The notes under the pieces were generated by a model that did not search any database, was not told the DNA's origin, and worked only from the letters and a program-made list of their open reading frames with translations. Below are positions 246 to 24,437 of a DNA stretch of 31,682 nt, piece by piece. A program made the position numbers and the translations under genes. The stretch is from a virus, in the IMG/VR virus record IMGVR_UViG_3300034106_000906, positions 1 to 31,682 of that record; one strand, written 5' to 3'. Position 1 is the first letter of the stretch, and every line of letters starts with the position of its first letter.

Positions 246-434
246 TTATTTGTTTATGTAAATTACTCTGCCTTTAATTATTAAATAGCCGTCCTCAATT
301 TTATGCGCTGTGATTTTGTAGGTATAAATACTGTACTCCATTGAATATGGCATATTGCCTTGAAAGTAAATGTTGTCATATCCGGCAATCTTTAGTGCCT
401 CAATTTTGTTTTTTGCTTTTACAATAGTTTCCAT
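246..434 (-). CDS. Small hypothetical protein (62 aa)
   Basis: A 62-residue protein beginning METIVKAKNKIEALKIAGY. The first 20 residues look helical and basic, and the rest has alternating hydrophobic residues with many tyrosines and isoleucines, suggesting an alpha-beta fold. The start at 434 is supported by the leader CCTAACAAC just before it, nearly identical to the leader of the 37-residue gene downstream. A 20-bp palindrome (461-480) sits 26 nt upstream of the start. No family is recognised and no function is assigned. Confidence 0.65.
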   Translation of the reverse strand: METIVKAKNKIEALKIAGYDNIYFQGNMPYSMEYSIYTYKITAHKIEDGYLIIKGRVIYINK

Positions 435-452
435 GTTGTTAGGTTTTTATTT

Positions 453-488
453 GTTAGAGATTGTGTCTTTCAAGACACAACCCCTAAC
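453..488 (-). promoter_or_regulatory. Palindrome A / extended hairpin
   Basis: The core is TTGTGTCTT-TC-AAGACACAA (461-480), a perfect 9-bp inverted repeat. In a minus-strand transcript the flanks GUUAGGGG and UCUCUAAC pair as well, using two G-U wobbles; on the plus strand the same positions would be A-C mismatches. This points to an RNA hairpin made from the minus-strand operon. It lies between the amidoligase stop and the next start. No T-run follows, so it does not look like a simple terminator. It could be an operator, a processing site or an attenuator. Confidence 0.55.
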
Positions 489-500
489 TTGTGATTAAAT

Positions 501-1400
501 TTATAAATATTGTCTGATTGCATCTGATATCACGCCCGTGTTGATAAAGTTTTGGAAGTCTTTAGCTAATGCCATCTTCTCGTTAACCTTTGCCTCGTCA
601 TTGTTATACATTGACATCAGGATAGGTTTAACATGCTTGAGTAACTTGTCAAAGCTACCGACCTCATTTACGCTGTAGTTAACGACCTCATACATTAGCT
701 CGTAACGTCTCATCATCTGCTTTACTGATTCAACCTTGTTAGGTATTCTGAATTCAACTATGCCGTGACCATGACCAAAGTTTTTAACTAAGCATACCTG
801 ATACTTTGAGTGCCAATCAGATGAATTGCCTTCGTAGTATTCATCTGCCGTTCTCATTCGCTTGTTGTAGCTACAGTAATAGTTTTGCAATCTCTTCGGG
901 AACAAAGCGTAAATCAATCCGCTGAAATTCCTGACCTTTACAAGTATCTGACTTCCGTTCAATCCCTTTACGCCGATGTTGATATGACCTCCGCATCTGT
1001 TGTCACTTGGGCTGTAGCTATCGTCAATAATTCGATTAGCTTTGTGCATCATATCGAATACCTTTGTGCGCCATTGTGACTGAGGAAGCAAAGGTAAAAC
1101 GTGCGTCACTGCCTCAACACCACAACTTCCGTCTCTTTCAAAACCACAGAACAATTCGTACTCTTTTAGCGCTGAGCTATGAAAGCTATTTTTTTCAACT
1201 TCAAAACCTATCGTAAATTTGCTCTCAAAATCTCTGTCTAACTTTACTAGCGAGTACTGTCTGTCCTTAGGTTTAATGCTGTCGGCATCGGCTTTGTATG
1301 GTGATTTATTTAGCATCAAAGGATTAGGTTTTCCGTGATAGCTGTGCAATACACCTCTGCTGTAATCGTTTGTCAATTGGTATTCAATTCCTTTTTTCAT
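501..1400 (-). CDS. Amidoligase-like protein (COOH-NH2 ligase family)
   Basis: A 299-residue protein with the spaced motifs of phage and bacterial amidoligases of the glutamine-synthetase-like COOH-NH2 ligase group (Amidoligase_2): IGFEVEK at 64-70, ERDGSCGVEAVT at 88-99, CGGHINIG at 136-143 and EFRIPN at 216-221. In that family the acidic pairs, the histidine of the GGH motif and the late E-x-R residues form the ATP/metal active site and join a carboxylate to an amine. Substrate is unknown; peptide tagging or wall/peptide modification are family-level possibilities. The start at 1400 has leader CACTAACACA before ATG. It is flanked by palindrome B upstream and palindrome A downstream. The motif match is clear; the biological role is inference. 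Confidence 0.68.
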   Translation of the reverse strand: MKKGIEYQLTNDYSRGVLHSYHGKPNPLMLNKSPYKADADSIKPKDRQYSLVKLDRDFESKFTIGFEVEKNSFHSSALKEYELFCGFERDGSCGVEAVTHVLPLLPQSQWRTKVFDMMHKANRIIDDSYSPSDNRCGGHINIGVKGLNGSQILVKVRNFSGLIYALFPKRLQNYYCSYNKRMRTADEYYEGNSSDWHSKYQVCLVKNFGHGHGIVEFRIPNKVESVKQMMRRYELMYEVVNYSVNEVGSFDKLLKHVKPILMSMYNNDEAKVNEKMALAKDFQNFINTGVISDAIRQYL

Positions 1401-1445
1401 TGTGTTAGTGTTTTTATGTTTAAATAATTAGATTAGTTACTTTAA

Positions 1446-1467
1446 TTTGTGTCTTGTAAGACACAAA
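1446..1467 (-). promoter_or_regulatory. Palindrome B (10-bp arms)
   Basis: TTTGTGTCTT-GT-AAGACACAAA is a perfect 10-bp inverted repeat, with the same core as palindromes A and C. It lies between the stop of the 199-residue gene and the start of the amidoligase-like gene, 45 nt upstream of that start. The surroundings are AT-rich without a T-run on either side, so a regulator-binding site or RNA processing hairpin fits better than an intrinsic terminator. Confidence 0.55.
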
Positions 1468-1498
1468 CTCATCAGTGATTTATAGAGACTTTGAACTC

Positions 1499-2098
1499 TT
1501 AATCTATTTGGCTTAGTAAGAATGCAATTGCTTGCAAGATTTCATCTTTGCTATTTGTAGTCTTCACTACATTGTCAGCGTTTACTCTTACTGCTACATT
1601 AGTATTAGACTTGAAAGATAGAGTGAAGATTGTTTCAGTTTTTTCGCTTTCTTCTGTCTCTTCGCTTTCTTCTGTCTCATCTAAGCATTCAGGATTTTTT
1701 GCGAATTTCAGCAAGTTCTCAAGATTGCGCTTTGAGTATCCGCCATTTGCGTCAATCTCATCGCATTTTGCCTTGAAGCTTTCCACAATCTCATTCTCTA
1801 ATTTTCCACATCTTGTTAGCTTGTAGAAGAAAGATTTTTGATATCCGTAAACTTTCATTCCAAACTCTTCGTTAGACCATGAAATTCCCTCTTCGGCACA
1901 TATTCGCTTTCCCTCTTCAGATGTAAACCATTCAAATGATTTCAACACTAAAGTTGATAAGGTTAATGTTTGCTCGAATTTTTTCTTTTTTGCATTGGTA
2001 ATGCCGTTTTGAATTCTCTTGATATTACCTAAGTTTAGGTTTTCTTTTACGATTGAAAGATTCAAAAAGCTTTGTTCGATTGATAGTAAATTTGTCAT
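1499..2098 (-). CDS. Hypothetical phage protein (199 aa)
   Basis: The N-terminal 120 residues are charged and helical, including FGMKVYGYQKSFFYKLTR at about 79-96, which has the spacing of a short recognition-type helical segment but is not a diagnostic motif. A low-complexity acidic stretch with repeated E-E-S/T-E (about 139-155) links this to a C-terminal beta-alpha segment (about 156-199). The acidic linker is typical of two-domain proteins. The start at 2098 is preceded by AACTTAACAATC, the same leader type as the neighbours. It is followed by palindrome B and the amidoligase gene. No family is recognised; DNA binding is possible but not shown. Confidence 0.65.
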   Translation of the reverse strand: MTNLLSIEQSFLNLSIVKENLNLGNIKRIQNGITNAKKKKFEQTLTLSTLVLKSFEWFTSEEGKRICAEEGISWSNEEFGMKVYGYQKSFFYKLTRCGKLENEIVESFKAKCDEIDANGGYSKRNLENLLKFAKNPECLDETEESEETEESEKTETIFTLSFKSNTNVAVRVNADNVVKTTNSKDEILQAIAFLLSQID

Positions 2099-2129
2099 GA
2101 TTGTTAAGTTTTTTTAGTTTTTAAAATGA

Positions 2130-2243
2130 TTAAAGCATTGGAATTAACATGATTGTTTCAACTATTATTAAAATTGAAACGATTGTAATTGCTACGATAA
2201 AGCATAACTCTACGATGTTTTCTGTTTTTGTTTGATTGCTCAT
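2130..2243 (-). CDS. 37-residue membrane peptide
   Basis: A short frame runs from ATG 2243 to TAA 2130-2132. The product begins MSNQTKTENIVEL and continues as a long hydrophobic helix (residues about 11-37) rich in Ile, Val and Leu. It lies 31 nt upstream of the 199-residue gene in the same direction, making it the first gene of the minus-strand operon. Its length and M-x-NQ-x-x-T start match the peptide at 119-232. Palindrome C and the tRNA-like element lie just upstream. Function is unknown. Confidence 0.5.
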   Translation of the reverse strand: MSNQTKTENIVELCFIVAITIVSILIIVETIMLIPML

Positions 2244-2280
2244 GATTATTAAGTATTAAATTGTTAATGAATTAAGTTAG

Positions 2281-2344
2281 ATGCAGTCACCTGAATCGAA
2301 CAGATGTTTGTGTCTTGAAAGACACATTGTACCATACACTGCAT
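2281..2344 (-). ncRNA. tRNA-like cloverleaf element
   Basis: Read on the minus strand, ATGCAGT (2344-2338) and ACTGCAT (2287-2281) form a perfect 7-bp closing stem. Between them are GTA-TGG-TAC (mini D-arm), the hairpin TGTGTCTT..AAGACACA (2309-2326) in the anticodon-arm position, and CATCTG-TTCGATT-CAGGTG, which has the canonical T-loop TTCGATT. Total length is 64 nt, short for a tRNA, and the middle loop cannot give a 7-nt anticodon loop. So it is better called tRNA-like or a decayed tRNA than a working tRNA. No encoded CCA follows (CTAA instead). Confidence 0.4.
2309..2326 (-). promoter_or_regulatory. Palindrome C (within the tRNA-like element)
   Basis: TGTGTCTT-GA-AAGACACA is an 8-bp inverted repeat with the same core as palindromes A and B. 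It lies 65 nt upstream of the first gene of the minus-strand operon. It can be read as the third operator or hairpin of the set, or as the middle arm of the tRNA-like fold. Confidence 0.5.
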
Positions 2345-2353
2345 TGTTTGTTA

Positions 2354-2384: not shown

Positions 2385-2565
2385 ATTTGTAAGACACTTA
2401 GTGACTTTGTTCGTCAGCTTACCCGCATGTTCAAAGAAACCGTTACTCTGTACTCTGTAGTTATTGTGCCGACATCACGTCTGTACCTACATTTCCACAC
2501 CTTTCGTCCTATATCGCATATCGTGTATACTGCCTTGTGCTGTATCGCTTCCGATTATGTTGACA

Positions 2566-3368: not shown

Positions 3369-3536
3369 ATGAGCAAGGAAATGTTATTAGGGATTGTAAG
3401 ACACGTTTTAACTTTTGGTGGTGGTCTTCTTGTTACCAAGGGCTTTATTGACCAGTCGATTATGCTTGAGTTAGTTGGTGGAGTTATCACATTGGTTGGT
3501 GGACTATGGTCTGTATTCAGTAAAAAGAAGTCATAA
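3369..3536 (+). CDS. Holin-like small membrane protein (55 aa)
   Basis: The protein starts MSKEMLLGIVRHVLTFGGG and has two hydrophobic segments: about residues 6-24, and 31-50 with the glycines GGVITLVGG. It ends in the basic tail SKKKS. The RHVLTFGGGLLVTKGFID and VTLVG-x-WSVFSK-like pattern is that of small phage holins of the Pam3-gp28 type, which form membrane lesions at the end of infection. It lies immediately before a strong terminator, away from the amidase gene at 12845, so the phage may carry two holin-like genes. Another small membrane role is possible. Confidence 0.6.
   Translation: MSKEMLLGIVRHVLTFGGGLLVTKGFIDQSIMLELVGGVITLVGGLWSVFSKKKS
3394..3404 (+). repeat. TTGTAAGACAC half-site copy
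   Basis: TTGTAAGACAC matches half of palindrome B (1455-1465) and the copy at 2387-2397. It lies inside the holin-like gene. It may be chance, but three identical 11-mers in 2 kb are worth recording. Confidence 0.3.
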
Positions 3537-7882: not shown

Positions 7883-8140
7883 ATGAAACCAATAGGTAAG
7901 TACATTGTAATTACGTCAATTGACGAAGAAATTAAGACAGATTCAGGCATTATCCTGTCCGGAGAAGATGCAGGTCAATTCAGATACAAGAAAGGAAAGG
8001 TTGTTATGCCCGGTACTGACGTATTAGCAATCAAAGAAGGGGACGTTATCTACTACGATAAGGGACATTCCTTTACAATGATTATCAAGGACAATCAATA
8101 CACTATTATTCGAGAGGGAGACGTTGTTGTTGTTGAATAA
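7883..8140 (+). CDS. groES: Phage co-chaperonin GroES
   Basis: An 85-residue GroES homologue: MKPIGKYIVI at the start, mobile-loop region IKTDSGIILSGEDAG (17-31) in place of the usual KTxGGIVL, then KGKVVMPG (37-44), IKEGDVIYYDKG (50-61) and the C-terminal YTIIREGDVVVVE. The beta-barrel pattern and GII(L) tripeptide that contacts GroEL are conserved. It would cap the phage GroEL (4159) or the host one. The leader ATTAAATCTAAT matches groEL's. Its last 35 bases overlap the end of the winged-helix-type gene on the other strand. Confidence 0.92.
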   Translation: MKPIGKYIVITSIDEEIKTDSGIILSGEDAGQFRYKKGKVVMPGTDVLAIKEGDVIYYDKGHSFTMIIKDNQYTIIREGDVVVVE

Positions 8141-8552
8141 AAGCGTTCATCTCAGCAATCATATCCTTATAAACATTTTCCCTGTGCCTGGCACTTGCTA
8201 GGTACATGGGGTTATTACTTTTTGTTGTAGAGATTCTTTTTTTACCCTCTAACTTATCATATATAATACTGACAATCATTTTACTTTTCTCTGTCATTTG
8301 ATATATTTTACCTCTATTCTTAATCCTGCCTCTGAAGACTTCAAAATATCCTTGTTTTAAAAGTCTATCGAAACGTAATCTATCCCAACTAACAAGCCTA
8401 TTAAAATCTTGAAATCTATCCCTTGTAAAATAGGATTCAGAGTACATAAAAAGAAGGATGTCAAGGTCTGATTGAGTTAGACCATACTTTACCTTTATGA
8501 ATTGACGTACTACCCTCCAATATTTCAGATAGTCCCTATCATTTTTTGCCAT
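8106..8552 (-). CDS. Winged-helix-type DNA-binding protein, probable regulator
   Basis: A 148-residue basic protein on the minus strand. The N-terminal 100 residues (WRVVRQFIKVKYGLTQSDLDILLFMYS ... FDRLLKQGYFEVFRGR ... KIYQMTEKS) have the helix-helix-helix-wing pattern of MarR/PadR-like winged-helix domains. A C-terminal tail with NPMY..A and VYKDMIAEMNAF is conserved in similar Bacteroidota phage proteins as I recall. The start at 8552 follows a TATATTTG box (8580-8587) and the leader AAAATTTAATCAA. It is divergent from the small-protein cluster and convergent on groES, a good place for a switch between early and late genes. DNA binding is inferred. Confidence 0.65.
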   Translation of the reverse strand: MAKNDRDYLKYWRVVRQFIKVKYGLTQSDLDILLFMYSESYFTRDRFQDFNRLVSWDRLRFDRLLKQGYFEVFRGRIKNRGKIYQMTEKSKMIVSIIYDKLEGKKRISTTKSNNPMYLASARHRENVYKDMIAEMNAFIQQQQRLPLE

Positions 8553-9810: not shown

Positions 9811-10145
9811 TGAAAGACAGTTGCTATAAAAAAGTAAAGGCACAGTACGATGTATTTCCTTCAGCAAGGGCATCACAGGCAATAGCTAAGTGTCGCAAGG
9901 CTAGTGGAAACGTAGTAAAGTCTGAGAAAGGAACAAGCTTGAAGCGTTGGGATAAAGAGAACTGGGTAGATACAAGAACTAATAAACCATGTGGTGCAGG
10001 TGGAAAGAATGAGTACTGTAGACCGACAACAAAAGTGTCTTCCAAGACACCAAAAACTAAAGGAGAGATGACAGCTTCACAGCTTAGTGCTAAGAAGGCT
10101 GAGAAATTAAGAATAGGAATGGGAAACAGAGTGACAAAAGTTTAA
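9810..10145 (+). CDS. Small Cys-rich basic protein, DUF5872-like (tentative)
   Basis: A 111-residue protein beginning MKDSCYKKVKAQYDVFPSARASQAIAKCRK. The segment LKRWDKENWVDTRTNKPCG (44-62) followed by EYCRPTTKVSSKTPKT (68-83) is a pattern seen in phage and giant-virus proteins; I believe it corresponds to DUF5872, but could not check. Cysteines at 5, 28, 61 and 70 could bind metal. The DNA contains a palindrome GTGTCTT..AAGACAC at 10035-10050. It is coupled to the previous gene by TAATG. Function unknown. Confidence 0.7.
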   Translation: MKDSCYKKVKAQYDVFPSARASQAIAKCRKASGNVVKSEKGTSLKRWDKENWVDTRTNKPCGAGGKNEYCRPTTKVSSKTPKTKGEMTASQLSAKKAEKLRIGMGNRVTKV

Positions 10146-24405: not shown

Positions 24406-24437
24406 GGAGGGTGTTTTGGCGAACACCCTCCTATTTT
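24406..24437 (+). terminator. Terminator after the major capsid gene
   Basis: GGAGGGTGTT (24406-24415) and AACACCCTCC (24422-24431) form a 10-bp stem with loop TTGGCG, followed by TATTTT. The T-run is short, so read-through is possible and may set the ratio of capsid to downstream proteins. Confidence 0.82.

Follow-up and report, generated by a model that had tools for sequence, protein, structure and literature searches.

A palindrome repeated across the genomes of aquatic Bacteroidetes phages: probable dispersed operators and their unusual overlap with self-cleaving RNAs

Palindromes in the window

Why does one short palindrome recur between the early genes of a phage, and is it read there as DNA or as RNA? 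The question is raised by the IMG/VR record IMGVR_UViG_3300034106_000906, whose 31,682 nucleotides are referred to here as the window. The first-pass annotation had reported inverted repeats at 461–480, 1446–1467 and 2309–2326 in a minus-strand operon, and these are indeed a perfect 20-mer, a 20-mer (1447–1466) and an 18-mer. All contain the 16-bp core GTGTCTT-NN-AAGACAC, which has four copies in the window, starting at 463, 1449, 2310 and 10035.

463–478, no strand: probable operator core, copy A; centre TC, perfect 20/20 palindrome at 461–480
1449–1464, no strand: probable operator core, copy B; centre GT, perfect 20/20 palindrome at 1447–1466
2310–2325, no strand: probable operator core, copy C; centre GA, perfect 18 bp at 2309–2326 and 19/20 of the 20-mer
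10035–10050, no strand: fourth probable operator core; centre CC, within a plus-strand 111-aa late gene
2387–2397, plus strand: isolated half-site TTGTAAGACAC; weak
3394–3404, plus strand: isolated half-site TTGTAAGACAC, within a 55-aa ORF; weak
246–434, minus strand: 62-aa ORF downstream of copy A

Palindromic 20-mers, with up to three mismatches allowed, occurred 0 times in 100 dinucleotide-preserving shuffles, and the palindromes of the window are real and far above chance. Half-site TTGTAAGACAC, also claimed earlier at 2387 and 3394, is present at both and has three matches when copy B is counted, against 0.03 expected. The first-pass annotation overlooked the fourth core, as well as the overlap of copy B with a twister and of copy C with a tRNA-like fold (both described below).

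The repeats had been placed 26–65 nt before a gene start. This holds for copies A (28 nt) and B (48 nt); copy C lies 211 nt from the start of the 199-aa ORF, and about 65 nt from a start only if a 37-codon ORF is counted. The latter, at about 2130–2243 on the minus strand between copy C and the 199-aa gene, has a predicted membrane-like segment. Copy A can be lengthened by G-U pairs in the minus-strand RNA only, as had been noted, giving 17 bp instead of the 9 bp of Watson-Crick pairing, and forms the apex of a 17-bp minus-strand RNA hairpin at about 455–490 (MFE −23.1 kcal/mol, z −6.5). We agree that copies A–C are not intrinsic terminators, since no T-run follows any of them in the window. 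A T-run does follow the palindrome in some relatives, behind the capsid gene.

The palindrome in related phages

The window, which has portal, GroEL and GroES genes, is a member of a group of podoviruses with genomes of ~60 kb. Among annotated relatives MW202828 is the best (portal 75% identical); Flavobacterium phage elemo and Maribacter phage Panino come next at 45–48%. A nucleotide search of the window against the annotated phage collection gave no match. Relatives were collected by scanning IMG/VR with a conserved early protein, the motifs of which we take to recall amidoligase-type enzymes. This yielded 80 loci and 775 kb of sequence.

501–1400, minus strand: conserved 299-aa early gene, the anchor for relatives; no Pfam match

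Nearly all of these relatives carry the core. In the 775 kb we counted 250 sites with distinct flanks, a number which, like our other site counts, includes orthologous sites of related genomes and thus not only independent events. Three control palindromes had 0 occurrences in the same sequence; a fourth, GTCTGTT..AACAGAC, had 17 matches and proved to be the palindrome of another lineage. The centres of the 250 sites are all pyrimidine-purine (CA 147, TA 44, TG 44 and CG 15), and compared with these the window centres TC, GT, GA and CC are exceptional.

In each of the 20-odd relatives of ~60 kb that are near-complete, one 16-bp palindrome outnumbers all others, usually with 6–17 copies. It is GTGTC-N6-GACAC in most and GTCTC-N6-GAGAC, GTCTG-N6-CAGAC or GTGTCGTTAACGACAC in some. 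Exact copies number 6–16 per near-complete genome for the GTGTCTT type, 15 in G073 and 16 in G074 for GTCTGTT..AACAGAC, 6 in G043 for GTCTCTT..AAGAGAC and 14 in MW202828 for GTGTCGTTAACGACAC. When the six inner bases are left free, GTGTC-N6-GACAC is common to most genomes, with up to 17 sites in each, compared with 0.05 in shuffles of one genome. Looser or altered centres are seen in G049, G060, G038 and G057, those of G049 and G038 including unpairable ones. A search for a repeated palindrome in G045 and G064 found none; the 199-aa gene described below is present and highly diverged in G045, and the copy in G064 is cut by the contig end.

On a portal tree, in which some deep branches are poorly supported, the GTCTC, GTCTG and GTGTCG genomes and the two genomes without a palindrome are scattered among the GTGTCTT genomes, and the specificity has therefore changed several times. 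In these switches both half-sites change together. With one multi-copy palindrome per genome and half-sites that switch jointly, the earlier proposal of one regulator is well supported, and the palindrome is neither absent from relatives nor spread at random, the two outcomes that had been named as speaking against it. Judged from sequence, it is the site set of a whole group of aquatic Bacteroidetes phages, even within genes.

Placement and promoter context

The density of sites per 10 kb is 14.6 in early gaps, 5.2 in late gaps, 3.0 in early coding sequence and 0.58 in late coding sequence; these classes derive from mechanical ORF calls, and some “coding” sites may be gap sites. The sites are thus enriched in early gaps and not confined to the gaps of the operon, the pattern for which the first-pass annotation had proposed to look. 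The fourth core of the window lies, as in relatives, at orthologous codons (VSSKTP) of the 111-aa late gene, and many genomes of the relatives have conserved sites at orthologous positions within four genes: groEL, terL, the late gene for the 111-aa protein and an early gene of ~483 aa. Another conserved site follows the major capsid gene of relatives.

Two positions flank the first large early gene, which encodes the 199-aa protein. A leader site is found within 400 bp before this gene in 59 of the 74 loci that have it, nearly always 189–300 bp upstream, and copy C occupies this position at 211 bp. A site no more than 120 bp after the stop codon is present in 53 of the 74 loci, mostly at 2–4 nt; copy B lies at 34 nt. 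The Bacteroidetes-type −7 element TAnnTTTG clusters 120–200 bp downstream of the leader site (27 of 29 matches in the loci examined), so that the leader site is usually upstream of a likely promoter. The spaced form of the promoter motif was not seen in the window.

Ribozymes and tRNA-like folds at the palindromes

Copies B and C are each embedded in a larger predicted RNA structure.

1429–1506, minus strand: predicted self-cleaving ribozyme of the twister type P3 (RF03154), in the gap from the 199-aa to the 299-aa gene
2278–2345, minus strand: tRNA-like fold (MFE −21.2, z −2.7), with copy C as the “anticodon” arm

The twister match is full-length and above threshold (61.8 bits, E 2.4e-12, gathering score 39.9, model positions 1–73 of 73), and copy B is its hairpin P1. 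From the twister architecture, cleavage would presumably fall at the U-A step just 3′ of the copy B hairpin, and we assume that the cut would leave this hairpin on the 3′ end of the upstream RNA. Unlike RF03154 in general, the P1 letters are here fixed by a genome-wide motif, and only one of the four sites in the window lies in a twister. No twister-P3 was reported at the same threshold in 30 loci of relatives, where hammerheads occur instead. The fold around copy C has an acceptor-like stem, a short D-like arm and a T arm with a TTCGATT loop. It was rejected as a tRNA gene, as ARAGORN found none in the window and Rfam made no call, and we describe it as tRNA-like only.

The relatives have two kinds of hammerhead, 106 in total and all on the sense strand, and 48 of them have the GTGTCTT palindrome just upstream. 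Those of type III (L006, L010, L014 and others) score 40.4–45.3 bits with RF00008, below the gathering score of 48.5 (E 4e-7 to 1e-5), and have the core CUGAUGA...GAAA and all three stems. For hammerheads between the genes of a phage operon, a role in dividing long transcripts into shorter mRNAs has been proposed (PMC3088659); unlike these, the type III hammerheads of the relatives carry the palindrome of their genome as a hairpin directly 5′ of stem III. In GTCTG genomes the palindrome is instead the loop of stem III in type I hammerheads, a type found in L007, L023, L027, L044, L076 and L077. Many hammerheads have an unrelated hairpin in place of the palindrome. The place for a hairpin is therefore a feature of the ribozyme module, and it is taken up by the operator where there is one. 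No hammerhead was found in the window. In relatives, types I and III coexist in single early operons, all in the sense orientation; the stem III hairpins of type I are long.

In other gaps the palindrome is found beside minihelices consisting of an acceptor and a T arm. Such minimal tRNA-like elements, with little or no anticodon arm, stand directly 3′ of the palindrome at L008:6628, L016:4376, L018:4876, L045:4901 and MW202828:43745, and are possible RNase P substrates in mRNA. The RNA-processing step suggested by the first-pass annotation is thus retained in part, given the twister at copy B and the hammerheads adjoining sites of relatives; it would be a separate layer on a core that is itself a DNA site.

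Candidate binding protein

A candidate for the protein that binds the palindrome is encoded between copies B and C.

1499–2098, minus strand: 199-aa protein, first large early gene, candidate palindrome binder; predicted HTH

The 199-aa protein has no match among Pfam and PDB sequences and falls in no recognised DNA-binding family. Its AF2 model (mean pLDDT 90) has a helical domain, in which helices 76–84 and 88–98 form the predicted HTH, and a C-terminal beta-beta-alpha domain. Foldseek gave no confident structural match in the PDB (nothing below E 0.9) and four similar unnamed proteins in the viral library.

At least two sites are present in 78 of the 79 loci found through the 199-aa protein, and gene and palindromes are both absent from the 50 kb read of each of the phages elemoA and Panino. 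GTGTCTT genomes keep the putative recognition stretch GWQKSFFYK, which is changed in G043, G073, G074, G070, MW202828 and G045. Identity of the protein to that of the window is 23–28% in G045, G073 and MW202828, which have another or no palindrome, compared with at least 37% elsewhere; the portal proteins of these three genomes are unremarkable despite the diverged 199-aa gene. We therefore regard the 199-aa protein as the likely binder. The genomes that share GTCTG differ from each other in the putative recognition helix, which is a point against this assignment and makes any helix-to-site code hypothetical.

No integrase was seen in the genomes examined, and 84,980 bacterial and archaeal genomes contained no relative of the 199-aa protein with the pattern used. 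A search of 30 sequences for the ParA motif KGGxGK(S/T) in an ATPase-like context, which was a motif search only, gave none. These negative results on integrase, ParA and bacterial relatives, for the genomes examined and the motif and pattern used, make a role as lysogenic repressor unlikely.

DNA site, RNA hairpin or other function

The sites within genes separate a DNA from an RNA reading of the core. They are read in three frames (CVFEDT, CLQRH, VSSKTP and VFEDT), and in GTCTC and GTCTG genomes the encoded residues follow the palindrome, with LFEET or LFQQT in place of VFEDT, and SLQRD in place of CLQRH. Their flanks pair no better than shuffled ones and do not extend the stem. Among variants altered in one arm, the sense RNA would still pair through G-U in 7 and be broken in 16, which is no preference for G-U. 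Given coding sites without a stem extension and one-arm variants without a leaning towards G-U, it is as a DNA site that the core is conserved, and the palindrome is very probably an operator in double-stranded DNA. The sequences point to an architecture of two 5-bp half-sites (GTGTC/GACAC) 11 bp apart on the duplex. An early idea from the hammerhead contexts, that a 3′-end hairpin is the chief role, was demoted in view of the coding sites; and a pure RNA hairpin as the primary element was rejected on the three coding frames, the missing wobble preference and the unextended coding sites.

The gap sites behave differently from this in part. Their flanks pair beyond shuffles, most strongly beside hammerheads, and their sense-strand centres are CA in 68 cases and TG in 14, a bias that a symmetric DNA site leaves unexplained. 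Together the flank pairing and the centre bias suggest a second, RNA-level constraint in gaps. They could also mean that the hairpin itself is functional, as a site for an RNA-binding protein or an RNase or as a 3′-end protector, with DNA conservation being secondary, and the links with twister, hammerhead and tRNA-like elements and the one-strand lengthening of copy A by G-U pairs would fit. We find this quite unlikely, given the many unextended sites in mid-gene, degenerate copies in which broken pairs are no less frequent than wobbles, and a leader site that is mostly upstream of the promoter-like motif. Moreover, MW202828 has its sites as bare 16-mers, most of them placed after one stop codon and before the following start codon, and mostly without ribozymes. 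A DNA site need not be regulatory, and one for replication, packaging or cassette recombination, or a self/non-self mark for a nuclease or methyltransferase, would agree with a spread over the whole genome that takes in terL and the ~483-aa early gene, and with sites between many early genes that resemble cassette boundaries. The enrichment in early gaps and the fixed spot upstream of the 199-aa gene fit operon control better, and such a function seems very unlikely.

An HTH protein on dispersed sites might also organise, condense or segregate the genome without controlling transcription, like ParB, Noc or KorB. The 16-bp palindromes are spread across a 60-kb replicon, late genes included, and a second look at structural matches of the full 199-aa model listed Spo0J/ParB 1vz0 (Z 5.2, rmsd 4.9, 98 residues), KorB (Z 3.5) and Noc (Z 3.4). 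Common arrangements, however, give Z values in this range, and ParB was missing from the matches of the domain-only model. The protein also seems too short for a CTPase domain, and the sites are concentrated in early-gene gaps and not in one cluster. A ParB partition system proper was rejected, as a search of seven genomes for the ParB HTH domain PF17762 gave nothing up to E 5, with control genomes matching, and the motif search of 30 sequences found no ParA; an architectural role more generally appears unlikely. If the binder is not the 199-aa protein, it could be the product of a lone minus-strand 148-aa gene beside groES (window 8106–8552), which is regulator-like, conserved in all 23 genomes searched, weakly matched to a phage transcriptional-regulator family and labelled “repressor protein” in MW202828. 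This gene is also present in elemoA (E 1e-20), whose 50 kb of sequence read lack dispersed palindromes; this makes the 148-aa protein a less likely binder. The divergence of the gene does not track palindrome type. We consider this assignment improbable.

Proposed mechanism and comparison with known systems

We infer that the palindrome is the operator of a dimeric HTH protein, most likely the 199-aa product. The dimer would read the half-sites GTGTC and GACAC one helical turn apart, with the six inner bases as a secondary determinant of recognition. Since dispersed sites stand before the gene itself, in gaps of the early region and in a small number of late genes, genome-wide control of early transcription is probable. 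The early protein, bound to its 6–17 sites, would dampen early transcription throughout the genome in the manner of stoperators: it would cover the early promoter region and stop elongating polymerase in every gap, and its own synthesis would be among the targets. The sites in late genes may limit read-through or antisense transcription. In gaps the palindrome would additionally form an RNA hairpin, as an arm of, or an upstream shield for, self-cleaving ribozymes or tRNA-like elements.

We lean towards a transcriptional roadblock or repression as the main role, and slightly favour the explanation as a whole, a double-stranded operator through which an HTH protein, most likely the 199-aa one, controls early transcription. 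A tentative extension is that the 16-mer works on two levels: in duplex DNA a new family of global HTH regulators of phages would bind it as their operator, and in RNA it would be the hairpin that a local self-cleaving element (type III or type I hammerhead, twister-P3 or tRNA-like RNase P substrate) leaves on the 3′ end of the upstream mRNA, thereby coupling transcription control with the formation of mRNA ends.

The system resembles the stoperators of cluster A mycobacteriophages such as L5 and Bxb1, which also have many copies per genome, many of them off promoters, a lineage-specific site, a diverging phage-encoded DNA-binding protein (here a candidate) and a site near the regulator gene (PMC6550527). 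L5 stoperators are asymmetric 13-bp sites bound by a two-domain monomer (PMC9283540), and their phages are temperate and have an immunity repressor. The sites described here, in contrast, are 16-bp palindromes, some of which overlap ribozymes, in phages where no integrase was seen, and the candidate binder is an early gene product without a known fold. Instead of the asymmetry and single orientation of L5 sites there is a partial sense bias, in the centre only. In size (16 bp), spread and the location of some sites far upstream of promoters, the palindromes are similar to the operators OB of KorB, a helical DNA-binding protein that exerts long-range control of genes of plasmid RK2 (PMC11790492). 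KorB is a ParB-family CTPase clamp, whereas the 199-aa protein has no ParB sequence match. On this comparison we regard the palindromes as a form of dispersed phage operator that, unusually, overlaps with self-cleaving RNAs. The motif, sought in four forms, had no occurrence in 5.4 million open papers, and literature searches on dispersed palindromes in Flavobacterium phages gave nothing relevant.

For a large group of Bacteroidetes phages, most of them uncultured, the palindromes would define a regulatory code that spans the genome, and they would give a likely role to a conserved, unannotated early protein. The several natural switches of specificity, in which about ten sites, including codons within genes, changed together, amount to a natural experiment in regulator-operator co-evolution. 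The unusual overlap of operator and ribozyme stem indicates that the “variable” arms of ribozymes can carry information at the DNA level.

Two further elements were observed in the window. A strong hairpin, GGAGGGTGTTTTGGCGAACACCCTCC, follows the major capsid gene at 24406–24432 on the plus strand, where relatives have their signature palindrome with different letters. The divergent intergenic region between early and late genes contains, at 2811–2935, a GT/GC-rich simple tract (GTGTGCGTGTGCG...) in this AT-rich phage.
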